Shown here: positions 9,100-24,831 of the stretch, piece by piece
How positions within the stretch are numbered: the first letter of the stretch is position 1
Layout of the letters: each line of letters opens with the position of its first letter
Assembly (NCBI RefSeq): GCF_002007645.1
Contig: NZ_CP019791.1
Location: 4,022,593-4,086,592 of the forward strand
Direction: 5' to 3'
DNA: 64,000 bases
DNA from: Anaerohalosphaera lusitana
GTDB taxonomy: Bacteria > Planctomycetota > Phycisphaerae > Sedimentisphaerales > Anaerohalosphaeraceae
Notes under the pieces: model-generated
What the model was told of the DNA's origin: nothing
The model's database searches: none
Seen by the model: the letters and a program-made list of their open reading frames with translations, nothing else
Program-made: the position numbers and the translations under genes

Positions 9100-9723
9100 C
9101 TAACGCGTCGAAGTTGGGTCAAAAGTGGAACTTTTTATGACCTCTGCTGCGGTGCTGAACGGGTTGGGCTCGCCTCCCTGCCATTCACTACCCAGCCGCT
9201 CCAGTTCCGGCAATGCCTCTTGGGCCCCCATATCGGACAGCAATTTCGCCGCCGCGATCTTGTCGCCGAAGCTGCCGTTTTGCAGAATTTCAACCAGACC
9301 ATCTATATCTTTTGACTGCAGCATTTCCTCCAGCCGACCGTTTTCCGAATCAACCGAATCTTCATAACCCACTTCTGTTTCCGCCTCCTTCAATCTGGCC
9401 GAAGGCATAAAGTCATACTTGAGGGATACCCCGCCGGCCGAATCGAGACTCGGTGCAGGCTCGGTATCCCAAACGAACCGCGTCGCGAGCTGGTGACCTA
9501 TCAGCAGAGCAAGCACACACGCCGCCAGACCTGCGGTTGCGGGGCTCAAAATAGCCCTTTTCGCCCTTTTGTGAAACCGCTCCCTGGGTCGCAGACGTAT
9601 GGCCGCGGGCTCGAACCGCTCCAGCATTTCGCTGCGCAGGGCCTCTTTGTGCTTCGCCCGGCCGGACGGCTCATCGCTTATCTTATCGAACAGCTCATTC
9701 AATTGTGATTCGCGGTCGTTCAT
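9100..9723 (-). CDS. membrane anti-sigma-like protein paired with ECF sigma
   Basis: A 207-residue protein with a cytoplasmic N-terminus of about 60 charged residues, one membrane helix (about 61-80) and an extracytoplasmic C-terminus. Residues about 130-200 read like a HEAT-type helical repeat (DGLVEILQNGSFGDKIAAAKLLSDMG...PNPFSTAAE). The start lies four bases after the stop of the ECF sigma gene, the usual layout for sigma/anti-sigma pairs. The C-terminal block aligns closely with residues about 138-195 of the large protein at 10559-14080, so the two are paralogues. No zinc anti-sigma (HxxxCxxC) motif is present. The anti-sigma role is inferred from position and topology. Confidence 0.65.
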   Translation of the reverse strand: MNDRESQLNELFDKISDEPSGRAKHKEALRSEMLERFEPAAIRLRPRERFHKRAKRAILSPATAGLAACVLALLIGHQLATRFVWDTEPAPSLDSAGGVSLKYDFMPSARLKEAETEVGYEDSVDSENGRLEEMLQSKDIDGLVEILQNGSFGDKIAAAKLLSDMGAQEALPELERLGSEWQGGEPNPFSTAAEVIKSSTFDPTSTR

Positions 9724-9727
9724 ACTC

Positions 9728-10321
9728 TCATTTTTGTTCCATTTGTGATTCCAGCTTCTTCTGCAGCTTTTTCAGGCTGCGATGCAGGGTCACCCGCACC
9801 GTCGACGCCCGGACGCCGACTATCTCGGCGATCTCGTCGAATGACATTTTCTCGAAAAATCTCAGCATTATTATGGATTGCTGCCTTGTTTTCAGCGATT
9901 TCAGCGCCTTTTGCACCTGCCGCCATTGCGGATAGGTGCTGTCTTCGCTGAGCTGTTCATCGTCTGCGTTTTCCGCCAGCAGCCGCAGGTGCCGATTGCG
10001 TCTGGCGGTCTTGCGGTAGTACGAATTGACCTCGTTTACCGCGATCGTGTATATCCACTTGCGAAAATCGGTCTCTCCATCGCCCTGAAAATGCTTTATC
10101 GACTTCGCGACCGAAACCCAGACAGCCGAGCAGATATCCTCCGCAACAGTCCTTGAACCGACCCGGTAGACGCAAAAGCGGAAAATCCGGTCGTAATAGC
10201 GGTCGTAAAGATGCGCGAGCGCGGACGGCTCGCGACAGGCAAGCTGAACGCACGCGTTCATGTCACTGCCGGTCATCTCACGAGTCAGCTTTATATCTGC
10301 GTTGGAAAGCATCTGCAGCAA
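9728..10321 (-). CDS. ECF RNA polymerase sigma factor
   Basis: A 197-residue sigma-70-family protein. Region 2 is visible as LYDRYYDRIFRFCVYRVGSRTVAEDICSAVWVSVAKSI...FRKWIYTIAVNEVNSYYRK, and region 4 as LKTRQQSIIMLRFFEKMSFDEIAEIVGVRASTVRVTLHRSLKKLQ. It should direct RNA polymerase to a small regulon in response to a signal passed by the downstream anti-sigma-like protein. It is about 40% identical by eye to the second sigma at 14077-14640. Confidence 0.93.
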   Translation of the reverse strand: MLQMLSNADIKLTREMTGSDMNACVQLACREPSALAHLYDRYYDRIFRFCVYRVGSRTVAEDICSAVWVSVAKSIKHFQGDGETDFRKWIYTIAVNEVNSYYRKTARRNRHLRLLAENADDEQLSEDSTYPQWRQVQKALKSLKTRQQSIIMLRFFEKMSFDEIAEIVGVRASTVRVTLHRSLKKLQKKLESQMEQK

Positions 10322-10474
10322 TCATCCTCTAATCGGTTCACCATCCGCAAACAACAATGCGCAAGCCGGGCATTTGTTACGAAAAATTTTCATAAAAAAC
10401 TCCGCACCGCCAAAGACCGCCCAAAAGTGCATAAAGCGTCCTGTGAGCACATTTTCTGTCTAGGGCCCGTAAAA

Positions 10475-10558: not shown

Positions 10559-13500
10559 TCAATAAATATCCGCAGTCTCCAAATACCCCGCAATCTCGCC
10601 AGGCTGAACATCTACCGCAACAATCCGCCCATCCGGCCCGATGATTACTGTGTACGGCAGACCACTGCTGTCATAATCGAATGCGATTTTGGAACGATTA
10701 TTCGGCGTCCTGCCATAAATACCTGGAAGGGTGCAGTCCTTTATCATTTTTTCTCGCATGTACTGCCAGGGAACAAGCTCCGCCGCGACATTGATAATCT
10801 GAACATCATTACGAGCACTAATTCCCTCGAGAGCGGGCTTAAGGGTAGCCATTTTTTCCGGCTGATCAATGTTCAAGTAGGGATTCGTGAATGTAAGAAC
10901 CACATGCTTACCATAGTAGTCACTTGATCTGATCAAACCGGACTTTTTCAGGGCAGGGACTTCAAAATATGGAGCCTTCTGTCCGGGTTCAAGCGGCGCC
11001 GGACGGCAGTGCAGGGTTCCAATGTCAATGGGGGTGTCTAGCTCTTCTATTGATTCGTATTCCGGCACTTCGATGATGGCGGAAGCTTTCATGAATTCGT
11101 TGCCGTAGTCCGGAACGTACCTGTCAAAAGTACTATCTGCCCAAGGTTCTGCAGAAAATGTCAAGCGATAACGGCCGGGCAAAAAGTTTGGCTGCTGAAA
11201 TATTCCATCTTCGTTCAGCTTTATGACTGAATAGTTTCTATCAAAAGCGTAATGCCGCTCAATTCTGGTACGCCACTCTTTTCCTTCTTGCGAACTAATG
11301 AAACTACCGAACCATTTCATAGTATCAAGAAAACTCATTGATTCGACGCCTGTCGGCACAGGGATTTCATCTGATGGAATTGCATCTGCGGTAAAGACCT
11401 GCTCTATGTTCAGACTACCTCTACCAGTTTCGTAACCAAAGGGATCGCCATTTACATCCAGTACCTGGCCTTTAATCGTAAAGCCAGTTCCGCCGAGAAC
11501 AACCTCATGCGTTTTGCCCGCTTCAACATCGACTTCAACTCTAGGCTCAACCAGTATACGCGCTTTACCCGCAAAAAGACCATCAAATTCAAACTGCCCA
11601 TCCTCATCAGTTGTTGCAGAATACCGCAAGTTAAGAAAATCCTCCCTGGGAACAATACTGTATGGATAATCCACCCCAATGTTTTTCTTAGCTGCTGGCT
11701 TTGCCCCCTCATAGTAAGAGCCTCTAATCCTTGCATACGGTCTTAGCGTAATAATGTCACCATGCCCGCCATTTGGCAGTTCCCTAGAATGCAGGTGCGC
11801 ATAACCGGAGTCGTGAACTATTACGATTTCATAGTCGCCTTCTACAGGATCAAAGTGAAACTGTCCGTCACTGTCAGTGACTATATTTGGATGATATCTC
11901 AAGCGACTCTCATTAAACTCATTATTTATCATGTAAAGAGCTGACTGGAGCAGGATGGCTCGGACCCCTGCCACTGGTTCACCATCCATATTTAGCACCT
12001 GACAATCAATCCCGGAATCCGCTACCATTTCAAATACAAGTTCAACGTCCTGTTCACCGAGGGTGACTTCTCTCGAGGTCAACGGCTTGCAACCTTCAGC
12101 TAGTACCGTAATTTTGAAGCTTTCGCCTTCGGTGAATTTTGTTTCGAAACAGCCATCGGATGATCGCACATCTTCCGAACTGTGAATCGAATGGCCTTGA
12201 TGTCTGCGAATAGAAAAATTCCTAATCGGTTGCCCGGTCTGCCAGTTCACCACTTTGCCGTGGACTCTTATTTGTGGGTGAATGACAAACTCGTACCCAT
12301 TTTCAGAAGGTGTAATGCCTTCTATCTCCCGCTTCAAATAACCATCAGCTTCTACTATGAGTTCTATCTGATCCGGAGGTGCATCTTTCCACGCGAACCT
12401 GCCAGTGGCATCTGTCTTGGTTTTCCAGTCCAGGCTTTGCAGGTCATGATACCATTCATTTCGCCATTTACCCGCACTTACCTTTGCTTCCGAGATGGGA
12501 TTGCCATCCGGGTCTACAACTCGGCCGTGAATAGTATTGCCCGGCTTCAGAACAAACTTTACTTCGGCATTGGGCTTTTTAAAACTAACTTTTTTAAGGT
12601 CAGGTGCATAACCGTCCGCTGAAACTGTCACAAATTGCATTCGCTCCGACTTACGAATTTCTATGTCATCAAATTTGAATCGGCCACTTTGATCCGTATA
12701 CATTCGATGCTTACGGTCTCTGTTAAAATAATAGGCACCTAATTGAACTCGTGCATTCGGAATTGGACTGCCGTTTTCATTTACTACAAGACCGCTTAGA
12801 GTATATTTGTCCTCCAAATCCATTTTGTATTCTCGGTTACGCAGCGCTGCAAAATCCTGGGCAACGGTAGTACCTCGCTCAGAAGTCTGATAGTTGGAAT
12901 GCTTCAATGTAAACTCGATCAATTGCAGCTCAGCCGGTACACCGCTAAATTCCCATTTTCCATTGCTGTTAGATTTAACCTCTTCGTATACATCGATTTC
13001 GGGACTGTCTAAATGTTCCTCATGATTGATTTCAACTGTAACGTGTACATTGGCAATCGGCTCATCTCTTTCATTTAGAATTATCCCGCCTATAGTGCTA
13101 GCCGGTTCCATTTCGTACACGACCTCTAATGGTTCGACGCCAGGTGAGTTTTCTTCAGTCAAACAGAACAGCATTCGCACAAAGCCATTTTTACGCGCCC
13201 AGACCTTTAGAACCTCATCTTCATCTCGCTTCCAGCGAAGGTCACATCGGCCGTCCGAATTCGTCCAGGCGGCTGACCCAGAAGCTTCGACCCAGACAGT
13301 AGCCTTTTCCAGAGGCAGGCCGGTTTGTTTTTCTGTTACGAGGACTCGGACGAGGCGGCCTTTTTGGGGGTTGGTGATTTTGTTTTCGGTCGCGTCCTTA
13401 TTACTCTCTGATTTGGCGGTGGTTGTATCATCTCTAGCTGATTTGTTGACGGTCTCATCTGACAGGCTGTTGGGCTGGGGTTCTGGTTGCTTTTTTTGCA

Positions 13501-14080
13501 GTTTTTCTGCTGCTGCTGCGAAGGGGTTTGGGCTGTCGCCGGTGTAGTTTTGGGCGGCTTTTTGCAGGGGTTTTATTGCTTTGTCGCTGCCGAGGTCTGC
13601 GAGGTAGGCGGCGGAGGCGGTTTTTGCGTCTTCGCTGCCGGTTTCTAGTAGGTCGATCAGGCCATCGACGTCGTGGTTGGCGTAGAATCGGGCTGCGAGT
13701 TCGAGCTGGTCCTCGCCAGCGTCGGGCTGGTCTTTTGCTGCGATGTCTTTTTCCGGCGTATCTTCGGGCCGGGCCCCGGCGGCGTCGGTGGTGCGGGTCG
13801 GCGGGTCGGTTGCGATGTTCTGACGATCCGCGGTTTCGTTGTTTGCAAGCAGGTTTACGGCGGTGAGTACGGCTGCTATGAAGATAGCGGCGGCTGCGTA
13901 TTTTGTGATCGGGCTTGTCATTATCTGCCTCCAGACCTTACGAAAACCTCTCGGGGCGGGCGCGGAGGCGAACTCGGCGAGCATCCGGCTGCGAAGCTCG
14001 GAGCTGAACGCCTGGCGCGGCTGATCGTCGAGTTCGAGCCGGGCTATGCGATCTTCAAATTTTCGCTCGGGCGTCTTCAT
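10559..14080 (-). CDS. anti-sigma-like/CarboxypepD-regulatory repeats/thioredoxin-like fusion
   Basis: A 1173-residue protein. Residues 1-57 are charged, 58-79 form a membrane helix, and about 120-195 resemble the HEAT-like part of the 207-residue anti-sigma-like protein at 9100-9723. After a polar linker come about eight carboxypeptidase-regulatory-like (beta-sandwich) repeats, for example LSGLVVNENGSPIPNARV, IHGRVVDPDGNPISEAKV and IKGQVLDVNGDPFGYETG. The last ~150 residues (APLEPGQKAPYFEVPAL...GLPYTVIIGPDGRIVAV) have the TlpA/AhpC thioredoxin-like pattern, but at the active-site position the sequence is TFTNPYLNIDQ, with no cysteines, so redox chemistry is unlikely. The gene overlaps the upstream ECF sigma by four bases. 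A role as a surface-sensing anti-sigma protein is inferred. Confidence 0.75.
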   Translation of the reverse strand: MKTPERKFEDRIARLELDDQPRQAFSSELRSRMLAEFASAPAPRGFRKVWRQIMTSPITKYAAAAIFIAAVLTAVNLLANNETADRQNIATDPPTRTTDAAGARPEDTPEKDIAAKDQPDAGEDQLELAARFYANHDVDGLIDLLETGSEDAKTASAAYLADLGSDKAIKPLQKAAQNYTGDSPNPFAAAAEKLQKKQPEPQPNSLSDETVNKSARDDTTTAKSESNKDATENKITNPQKGRLVRVLVTEKQTGLPLEKATVWVEASGSAAWTNSDGRCDLRWKRDEDEVLKVWARKNGFVRMLFCLTEENSPGVEPLEVVYEMEPASTIGGIILNERDEPIANVHVTVEINHEEHLDSPEIDVYEEVKSNSNGKWEFSGVPAELQLIEFTLKHSNYQTSERGTTVAQDFAALRNREYKMDLEDKYTLSGLVVNENGSPIPNARVQLGAYYFNRDRKHRMYTDQSGRFKFDDIEIRKSERMQFVTVSADGYAPDLKKVSFKKPNAEVKFVLKPGNTIHGRVVDPDGNPISEAKVSAGKWRNEWYHDLQSLDWKTKTDATGRFAWKDAPPDQIELIVEADGYLKREIEGITPSENGYEFVIHPQIRVHGKVVNWQTGQPIRNFSIRRHQGHSIHSSEDVRSSDGCFETKFTEGESFKITVLAEGCKPLTSREVTLGEQDVELVFEMVADSGIDCQVLNMDGEPVAGVRAILLQSALYMINNEFNESRLRYHPNIVTDSDGQFHFDPVEGDYEIVIVHDSGYAHLHSRELPNGGHGDIITLRPYARIRGSYYEGAKPAAKKNIGVDYPYSIVPREDFLNLRYSATTDEDGQFEFDGLFAGKARILVEPRVEVDVEAGKTHEVVLGGTGFTIKGQVLDVNGDPFGYETGRGSLNIEQVFTADAIPSDEIPVPTGVESMSFLDTMKWFGSFISSQEGKEWRTRIERHYAFDRNYSVIKLNEDGIFQQPNFLPGRYRLTFSAEPWADSTFDRYVPDYGNEFMKASAIIEVPEYESIEELDTPIDIGTLHCRPAPLEPGQKAPYFEVPALKKSGLIRSSDYYGKHVVLTFTNPYLNIDQPEKMATLKPALEGISARNDVQIINVAAELVPWQYMREKMIKDCTLPGIYGRTPNNRSKIAFDYDSSGLPYTVIIGPDGRIVAVDVQPGEIAGYLETADIY

Positions 14081-14640
14081 CGATCTTCCCCGTAGTGGTT
14101 TTCGAGTATTCGGTTGAGTTTTTTCAGACTTCGGTGCAGCATCACGCGTACGGTTGCTGTCCGTTTGCCCACGATGGCGGCGATCTCTTCGAAGGACATA
14201 TCCTCAAAGAACCGCAGCGTGACAATGGTCTGGCAGATAGGCTTTAGTTGACATATGGCTGAGTGAACGGCTGAAAAGTCCTGCTCAACGGCTGGTTCGT
14301 CGGCTGTGTCCGGTGCTGTCTGGGCGACGATCTTCAGTCGCCGTTTTGAACTGTTTTTCTTTCTAAAATACGTATTGACCTGGTTGATGGCGATGGCGTA
14401 GAGCCAGCGGCGGAACTCGGTTTCGGTGGTGCCATCGAAGGTGCGTATCTGTCGGGCGACCGCGAGCCAGGCCGTGGAAGCGATGTCCTCGGCGGCGGTT
14501 CGGCAGTTGACCCGGTGCATGCAGAACCGGTAGATCGGACGATGATAGCGGTCGTACAGCCGCCCAAGCGCCGGCGCATCCGTGCGGGCCTGCTGTACTA
14601 CGCTGTCAAAATCGTGTTCGATTTTCGTCTCTGTCTGCAT
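14077..14640 (-). CDS. ECF RNA polymerase sigma factor (second cassette)
   Basis: A 187-residue ECF sigma with region 2 (LYDRYHRPIYRFCMHRVNCRTAAEDIASTAWLAVARQIRTF...RRWLYAIAINQVNTYFRKK) and region 4 (QTIVTLRFFEDMSFEEIAAIVGKRTATVRVMLHRSLKKLNRIL). Its stop overlaps the start of the large fusion gene by four bases, which suggests coupled translation. It is a paralogue of the sigma at 9728-10321. Confidence 0.93.
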   Translation of the reverse strand: MQTETKIEHDFDSVVQQARTDAPALGRLYDRYHRPIYRFCMHRVNCRTAAEDIASTAWLAVARQIRTFDGTTETEFRRWLYAIAINQVNTYFRKKNSSKRRLKIVAQTAPDTADEPAVEQDFSAVHSAICQLKPICQTIVTLRFFEDMSFEEIAAIVGKRTATVRVMLHRSLKKLNRILENHYGEDR

Positions 14641-14746
14641 GCGGTTTTCGATTTTCAGTGCTTCGTTCTAAGCCATTGCATCAACCATTGTCGGTATACA
14701 GATCGCGATGGAGGGCAAAACGTTACAAATTATGCCGGAAAATCAT

Positions 14747-24046: not shown

Positions 24047-24249
24047 CACAAACTCCTTTTACATAACTATTCCTTATCTGCATTCTACCCGGCAACGCGG
24101 TATTTGGCAATTAAATTAAGACGATGTTAATCTTAGCGGGCGAATATAGCAGGACTTTTAGCCTTTTTGCAGGTGTATTGTTTCGTATAAGCATTTGCGG
24201 GTTATAATTGGGTAAGGTTAAATTGAGAACTGTAATGATGGAGGCACAA

Positions 24250-24831
24250 ATGGCATTCACACTTGAACTGGGATCGAAGGCACCTGATTTTTCGCTTTGC
24301 GCTACCGACGGAAACTCGTATTCGCTGAACGACTTCGCGGATGCAAAAGTTCTGGTGATCTTCTTCACCTGCAATCACTGCCCGTATGTGATCGGCTCGG
24401 ATGAGGTTACCAGGCAGACCGCTGAGAAGTATATGCCCGAGGGCGTGAAATTCGTCGCGATCAATTCCAACAGCCCGAATACGTATGAAGAGGATTCGTA
24501 CGAGCACATGGTCGAGCGGATGCAGGAAAAGAAATTTCCGTGGACGTATCTGCACGACCGCACGCAGGAGGTCGCGAAGACCTACGGAGCCCTTCGCACG
24601 CCGCACTTTTTCGTGTTCGACCAGGAGCGCAAGCTGGTCTATTGCGGCAGAGGTGTGGACAATCCGAAGGACACGGACAAGATGACGGATAACGATCTGG
24701 ACAACGCTCTGGCGGATGTGACCGCAGGTCGGGATGTGCGCAAGCCGCTGACGAATCCCATCGGGTGTAATGTCAAGTGGGAAGGCAAGGACGCGCACTG
24801 GATGCCCGCCGACGCGTGTGATCTGATATAG
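24250..24831 (+). CDS. thioredoxin-fold peroxiredoxin-like protein
   Basis: A 193-residue protein beginning [48 protein letters not shown]. The CNHC pair sits at the thioredoxin active-site position, and [22 protein letters not shown] is the usual cis-proline and strand segment. This redoxin subgroup (AhpC/TSA-like with CxxCPY) is common but its substrate is not established. The ATG at 24250 is chosen because GGAGG (24240-24244) lies five bases before it. It heads a four-gene co-directional run with spacings of 27, 18 and 2 bases. Confidence 0.85.

Follow-up and report, generated by a model that had tools for sequence, protein, structure and literature searches.

A putative zinc-free membrane anti-sigma receptor with a portable, thioredoxin-tipped outer part beside an ECF sigma factor of Anaerohalosphaera lusitana

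The membrane anti-sigma factors of class I (zinc-binding or zinc-free; RseA, RskA and RsiW) are encoded next to their extracytoplasmic function (ECF) sigma partner and combine a short inner domain, one transmembrane (TM) helix and an outer sensory part. Both the class I domains and CnrY, of class II, hold their sigma factor through a dual interface, in which the first helix binds sigma region 4 and the last helix binds sigma region 2 (PMC7406223). In the fused ECFs, including ECF48, ECF52 and ECF53 (SCO4117) and IutY (ECF243), the sigma factor, anti-sigma part, TM helix and outer part form one chain, with IutY freed by proteolysis (PMC8999054). The polysaccharide-sensing RsgI-type proteins of Clostridium thermocellum and the lysozyme receptor RsiV are reported to have an outer domain that binds an extracellular ligand, leading to proteolysis (PMC12203970, PMC4183432). 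The planctomycetes possess dozens of ECF sigma factors, and experimental data on their control are scarce. Here, a window of 64,000 nucleotides (the whole stretch of DNA that was analysed) from the planctomycete Anaerohalosphaera lusitana (contig NZ_CP019791.1, positions 4,022,593 to 4,086,592), a genome with 40 matches to sigma-70 region 2, is described, in which a gene for an unusually large one-pass protein, hereafter the giant, lies beside that of an ECF sigma factor, sigma1.

The giant is read as a zinc-free, single-pass membrane regulator of sigma1, an anti-sigma receptor that would switch from outside to inside within one protein, with a probability of about 0.78. At the level of sequence, this reading is carried by the layout of the protein, its linkage to sigma genes, natural fusions among its relatives, a candidate promoter common to both sigma genes of the window and an outer module that is portable. 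The ATG of the giant overlaps the stop codon of the sigma1 gene by 4 bp in the open reading frames (ORFs) of the window, as the original prediction had stated, and 57 residues are assigned to the inside and ~1,090 to the outside of the membrane (Table 1). The net charge is +5 just before the TM helix and -2 just after it and the N-terminus is therefore placed inside, suggesting that in vivo the protein has an inner tail, one helix and an outer part; the same layout had been proposed before and agrees with hydropathy and flank charge. The HEAT-like unit that had been expected outside the membrane has a weak Pfam match (HEAT_2, E=0.09) and, as a profile of ten relatives, matches the natural HEAT structure 6veh (E=3e-11) and the alphaRep structures; it is common to the sigma-linked receptors and adjoins or is fused to an ECF in 22 of 27 places. 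Farther out, CarboxypepD_reg is found in six significant stretches, and an eye count over residues 240-1000 returns the roughly eight repeats first reported. The repeat array is homologous among sigma-adjacent, sigma-fused and M56 receptors. Repeats of this type are also seen in L010 (5218-9837; L-numbers are labels of the loci examined, with L009 and L010 from the A. lusitana genome itself), a protein of 1,539 residues with a signal-peptide-like N-terminus and no sigma neighbour seen.

The inner anti-sigma domain (ASD) carries the motif E..FE..I..L.LDD.P.......LR..ML.EF, and its family was searched with an alignment of residues 1-80, including the TM helix (A3), from which the 30 best loci were inspected, a sample biased to good members. 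All 30 possess an ECF gene directly upstream of the inner unit, mostly with a 4-bp overlap, and the attached ectodomains differ wholly (LolA-like, HEAT only, FecR-like, or repeats with thioredoxin). Across the order, the inner domain seems to serve as a general anti-sigma unit. When read by eye, it is carried on a FecR-like outer domain in L151 (676-1740) and on LolA-like and other outer domains in L135-L145. The original prediction had called for a search for the same design beside ECF genes, and the design recurs both next to them and fused to their products. In L049 (identical to L159, from a Sedimentisphaerales metagenome-assembled genome, MAG) and L050 (identical to L160), sigma factor, the same inner motif, TM helix and repeats form a single chain; the named loci of the fusion family are from Sedimentisphaerales or Phycisphaerae MAGs, in line with a place of the window in Phycisphaerae, most likely Sedimentisphaerales. 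In L040, which is the giant's closest homologue (42% over residues 237-1163), the fusion partner is an ECF sigma factor of a different type, and the outer part has therefore recombined between sigma factors. Recognized anti-sigma domains occur in the same position, with a zf-HC2 zinc finger in place of the ASD in L044, which has the same outside as the giant, and with Pfam zf-HC2 or its motif combined with repeats and a cysteine-less tip in L044, L047 and L048. Within the A. lusitana genome, the ECF sigma gene of L009 (4963-8537) overlaps by 4 bp the gene for a 1,012-residue protein with an Hx3Cx2C zinc-finger motif, a TM helix, the HEAT unit and repeats of the giant's kind, lacking the thioredoxin domain.

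Several results weigh against this reading. The inner domain has no match to any known anti-sigma family in Pfam or in a sequence search against the PDB, which returned neither CnrY nor RseA. Compared with a class I anti-sigma domain (ASDI), it lacks Hx3Cx2C and any Pfam or NCBIfam match and consists of ~57 residues with two helices; the ASDI hallmarks are found in its relatives L009 (motif) and L044 (zf-HC2). An AlphaFold model of residues 1-245 of the fusion L159 (seven alignment rows; predicted local distance difference test, pLDDT, 77; predicted template modelling score, pTM, 0.53) did not demonstrate contacts between sigma factor and ASD. The model has confident sigma domains, ASD helices at 179-188 and 197-210 (pLDDT ~90 for the latter) and a TM helix at 221-241, and its top Foldseek matches are sigma chains taken from complexes with anti-sigma factors, whose domain arrangement does not superpose. 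A whole-genome scan with the strict full promoter consensus gave no match, and therefore no regulon is proposed. As to how the sigma factor may be held, the fusions L161 (1248-3350), L162 (3674-5374) and L163 (2251-4065) lack sigma region 4 together with the first ASD helix, and keep region 2 and the second ASD helix (PDAGHK..LRAKILSVF or similar). This co-loss fits a dual interface but is no more than suggestive, because a single deletion could remove both elements; direct contact between sigma1 and the ASD of the giant would be expected on the same pattern. The three truncated proteins may derive from sigma factors and have ceased to function as ordinary ones.

Table 1. Features of the giant gene and its surroundings, in positions of the window
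Feature	Position	Strand	Basis
Giant one-pass anti-sigma-type protein, 1,173 residues	10559..14080	-	ORF reading and Pfam
Inner anti-sigma-type domain (ASD), zinc-free, residues 1-57, two predicted short helices	13910..14080	-	alignment A3
Single TM helix, residues ~57-79	13844..13912	-	hydropathy and charge
Juxtamembrane HEAT unit, residues 118-200	13481..13729	-	alignment A8 and PDB profile matches
Array of carboxypeptidase-regulatory-like repeats, residues 240-870	11471..13363	-	Pfam PF13620, E=1.6e-52
Final repeat, bearing a conserved helical insert (MSFLDTMKWFGSF...), residues 862-1020, part of the portable C-terminal module	11021..11497	-	alignment A1 and class-wide survey
TlpA/ResA-like thioredoxin fold, residues 1029-1171	10568..10996	-	3fkf and ResA/TlpA matches
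TFTNPYLNIDQ, residues 1063-1073, site of the lost CxxC	10862..10894	-	no cysteine at aligned CxxC columns
Loop proline (GLPYTV), kept	10628..10663	-	sequence reading
ECF sigma factor sigma1, 187 residues, regions 2 and 4	14077..14640	-	Pfam PF04542, E=1.7e-15; PF08281, E=2.3e-13
Second ECF sigma factor, sigma2	9728..10321	-	ORF and Pfam; 49% identical to sigma1
Small paralogue of the giant, 207 residues, ASD-TM-HEAT only, no repeats or thioredoxin	9100..9723	-	ORF and hydropathy
Candidate ECF promoter of sigma1, GTAAC-N15-GCGA	14703..14726	-	pattern upstream of sigma1
Candidate ECF promoter of sigma2, GTAAC-N13-GCGC	10359..10380	-	pattern upstream of sigma2

Directly downstream of the giant is a second sigma/anti-sigma pair (9100-10321), overlooked in the original prediction, which is a minimal form of the giant's design. 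This tandem pair could be a cross-talk partner of the giant and sigma1. A candidate promoter site is common to the two sigma genes of the window, and each of sigma1 and sigma2 may accordingly transcribe its own operon and possibly that of the other. The pattern GTAAC-N13-17-GCG lies within 160 bp upstream of eight of the 30 ASD-linked sigma genes, compared to a mean of 0.3 and a maximum of 3 in 300 shufflings. The looser pattern by itself is no more frequent in the window than chance would give (4 matches; 4.7 expected), and the candidate promoters draw their weight from position and from recurrence upstream of the relatives' sigma genes.

The C-terminal part of the giant was used for a class-wide search (alignment A1, E<=1e-8), with ~60 loci read in detail, and 359 of 397 genomes contain matches, many of which cover the thioredoxin part alone. 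The full module occurs in ECF-adjacent and ECF-sigma-fused proteins, in BlaR1/M56 membrane proteases and in secreted proteins and, judged from these contexts, behaves as a portable ectodomain. BlaI is encoded just upstream of the M56/BlaR1 proteins that carry the module in L042, L093, L098 and L122, and the M56 assignment is supported by matches for L042 (E=1e-43) and L093 (E=1e-51). A sensory role of the module is argued best by its use in two unrelated types of transmembrane switch. The state of CxxC on these M56-linked modules is mixed, intact in L042 (4327-9514) and L122 and lost in L093 and L098.

The thioredoxin end itself has a weak Pfam match to AhpC-TSA (residues 1032-1154, E=0.013), the giant alone matches structure 3fkf over residues 1030-1168 (E=1.8e-4) and the family profile matches ResA/TlpA (E=4e-22); a model from the single sequence (AlphaFold) reached a pLDDT of 34. 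These matches, together with the aligned columns, bear out the early claim of a thioredoxin-like end with replaced cysteines. In a first set, CxxC was present in none of 19 sigma-linked modules versus 17 of 27 others and, in an enlarged set, in one of 26 versus 20 of 35 (Fisher p=8e-6, uncorrected for relatedness). Sigma-linked modules are scattered over several places of the tree, the window's clade being the largest, and when phylogenetic independence was considered only two supported independent pairs were found on the tree, which is not significant. The association of cysteine loss with ECF linkage is suggestive and is not phylogenetically independent. A stricter rule, that no sigma-linked thioredoxin has CxxC, was ruled out in the enlarged sample by the sigma-fused L211 (5784-7940, SCGPC), a TlpA-type domain that keeps CGPC and lacks the repeats and the insert domain; it is possibly a redox-active sigma fusion. 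Elsewhere in the window, a 207-residue redoxin-like protein with CNHCP (24208-24831, + strand) may be a redox-active enzyme of the thioredoxin fold. Close homologues with CxxC and no sigma neighbour, which would have spoken against the original prediction, were not encountered; the nearest homologues are sigma-linked and all without CxxC, and the relatives that bear CxxC and lack a sigma neighbour are far removed (23% in the module) and belong to M56/BlaR1 receptors or secreted proteins.

It is tentatively proposed, at odds clearly below even, that the cysteine-less thioredoxin fold serves as the sensing head of a portable ectodomain, which planctomycetes have attached to ECF anti-sigma proteins or sigma fusions and to BlaR1/M56-BlaI systems, with redox catalysis lost upon ECF coupling. 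If true, a thioredoxin fold without cysteines would here have taken on a new use, as the tip of a receptor and in common with receptors of the BlaR1 type. The proline loop near the C-terminal strands is kept in the window, L040 and L012 (LPYTV, LPASV and LPYEV), and a binding groove may therefore survive. Set against the sensory head is the view that the thioredoxin end is a residual structural cap and that sensing falls to the HEAT unit, the repeats or a loss of envelope integrity, a view that concerns the head only, is compatible with the anti-sigma reading and comes not far short of an even chance. Sigma-linked relatives without the domain do exist (L049, L050 and L051, with others that have repeats only, LolA-like or HEAT only outer parts) and the small pair of the window has ASD-TM-HEAT only, yet the insert and thioredoxin module is kept class-wide on sigma-adjacent, sigma-fused and M56 receptors and the loop proline is kept in the window's clade. 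A redox-dead thioredoxin as ligand-sensing head is plausible, and the tip could be structural. The one-protein sensor of the original prediction is strongly supported in its anti-sigma-type part by linkage, sigma fusions and zinc-finger versions, whereas its ligand-sensing head is plausible only.

As an anti-sigma receptor, the giant would hold sigma1 at the membrane with residues 1-57 acting as a short zinc-free ASD; if it works as known anti-sigma factors do, the first helix would hold sigma region 4 and the second region 2. The tip, composed of the insert domain and the cysteine-less thioredoxin, would be presented outward by the juxtamembrane HEAT unit and the stalk of repeats. Binding of a ligand or partner, or envelope damage, sensed at the tip, the stalk or the HEAT unit, would reshape the giant or expose sites for proteases. 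Sigma1 would then be released, probably by stepwise proteolysis as in RseA, RsiV, RsgI and IutY (PMC4183432, PMC12203970, PMC8999054). Freed sigma1 would transcribe its own operon and its targets. The genome encodes an RseP-type M50 protease, as do nearly all bacteria, which is weak support for regulated proteolytic release. For organisms such as these, which live on sugars by strict fermentation (PMC11266412), a polysaccharide or an envelope component is an ordinary possibility for the sensed signal.

Two further explanations concern the giant as a whole. It may be a positive co-regulator, with sigma1 inactive alone and dependent on a cytoplasmic tail that is released or reshaped by the signal, as for FecR-like proteins; sequence does not distinguish inhibition from co-activation, the fused sigma factors need release or rearrangement of the tail either way and the FecR-like ectodomain of the ASD-family relative L151 would suit this explanation, but it is judged improbable, and against it stand L044 and L009, in which the same architecture carries, in place of the ASD, an Hx3Cx2C zinc-finger domain (Pfam zf-HC2) of the kind typical of inhibitory class I domains. 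Similarly improbable is that the giant has a structural or adhesive role at the surface and merely shares a transcript with the ECF sigma factor, which might control it, its inner tail being a simple membrane anchor. Repeat proteins unlinked to sigma do exist, such as the secreted one of L010, as do many secreted proteins related to the C-terminal module. Against this explanation, the conserved inner motif stands beside an ECF in 30 of 30 loci with unrelated ectodomains, is present even on a 207-residue protein without a surface array, forms one chain with sigma factors in relatives and is replaced by zinc-finger anti-sigma domains in relatives with the same outside. The preferred reading, a membrane anti-sigma receptor, sets out a defined, testable family whose members combine a short anti-sigma domain free of zinc with a HEAT unit next to the membrane and with outer modules that can be exchanged; its natural fusions lend themselves to mapping of the interface, and the minimal pair close by is a natural control.

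Compared with the known systems, the giant shares with the class I anti-sigma factors the neighbouring ECF partner, the short inner domain, the single TM helix and the outer part, and zinc-finger versions of class I occur within its own receptor family (L009 and L044). In contrast to the three-helix bundle and fourth helix of class I, its inner domain has two predicted helices in ~57 residues without a detectable sequence match, and its outer part exceeds 1,000 residues. CnrY, which is not known to carry a large outer array, has a short zinc-free inner domain of two helices, as is predicted for the giant, and one TM helix. The manner in which CnrY binds sigma regions 4 and 2 is the one implied by the co-loss of helix and sigma region in L161-L163, and two helices are predicted in the fused homologue L159, though there is no sequence match to CnrY. 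Fused ECFs resemble L040, L049 and L159 in their single chain and differ from the window, where sigma1 and the giant are separate genes, fusion being confined to the homologues L040, L049/L159 and L050/L160; the actinobacterial ECF52 carries a carbohydrate-binding domain where the giant's family has repeats and a cysteine-less thioredoxin. RsgI-type proteins and RsiV are one-pass anti-sigma factors, as is proposed for the giant, but differ from it in inner domain, sigma partner and outer fold. The BlaR1/MecR1 receptors with M56 and BlaI include relatives that carry the giant's outer module (L042, L093, L098 and L122) and use an M56 metalloprotease and a BlaI repressor instead of an anti-sigma domain and a sigma factor. 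Amongst these systems, that of the giant is real and conserved, and its novelty is the combination of a short zinc-free domain, a juxtamembrane HEAT unit and a portable ectodomain tipped with a cysteine-less thioredoxin.

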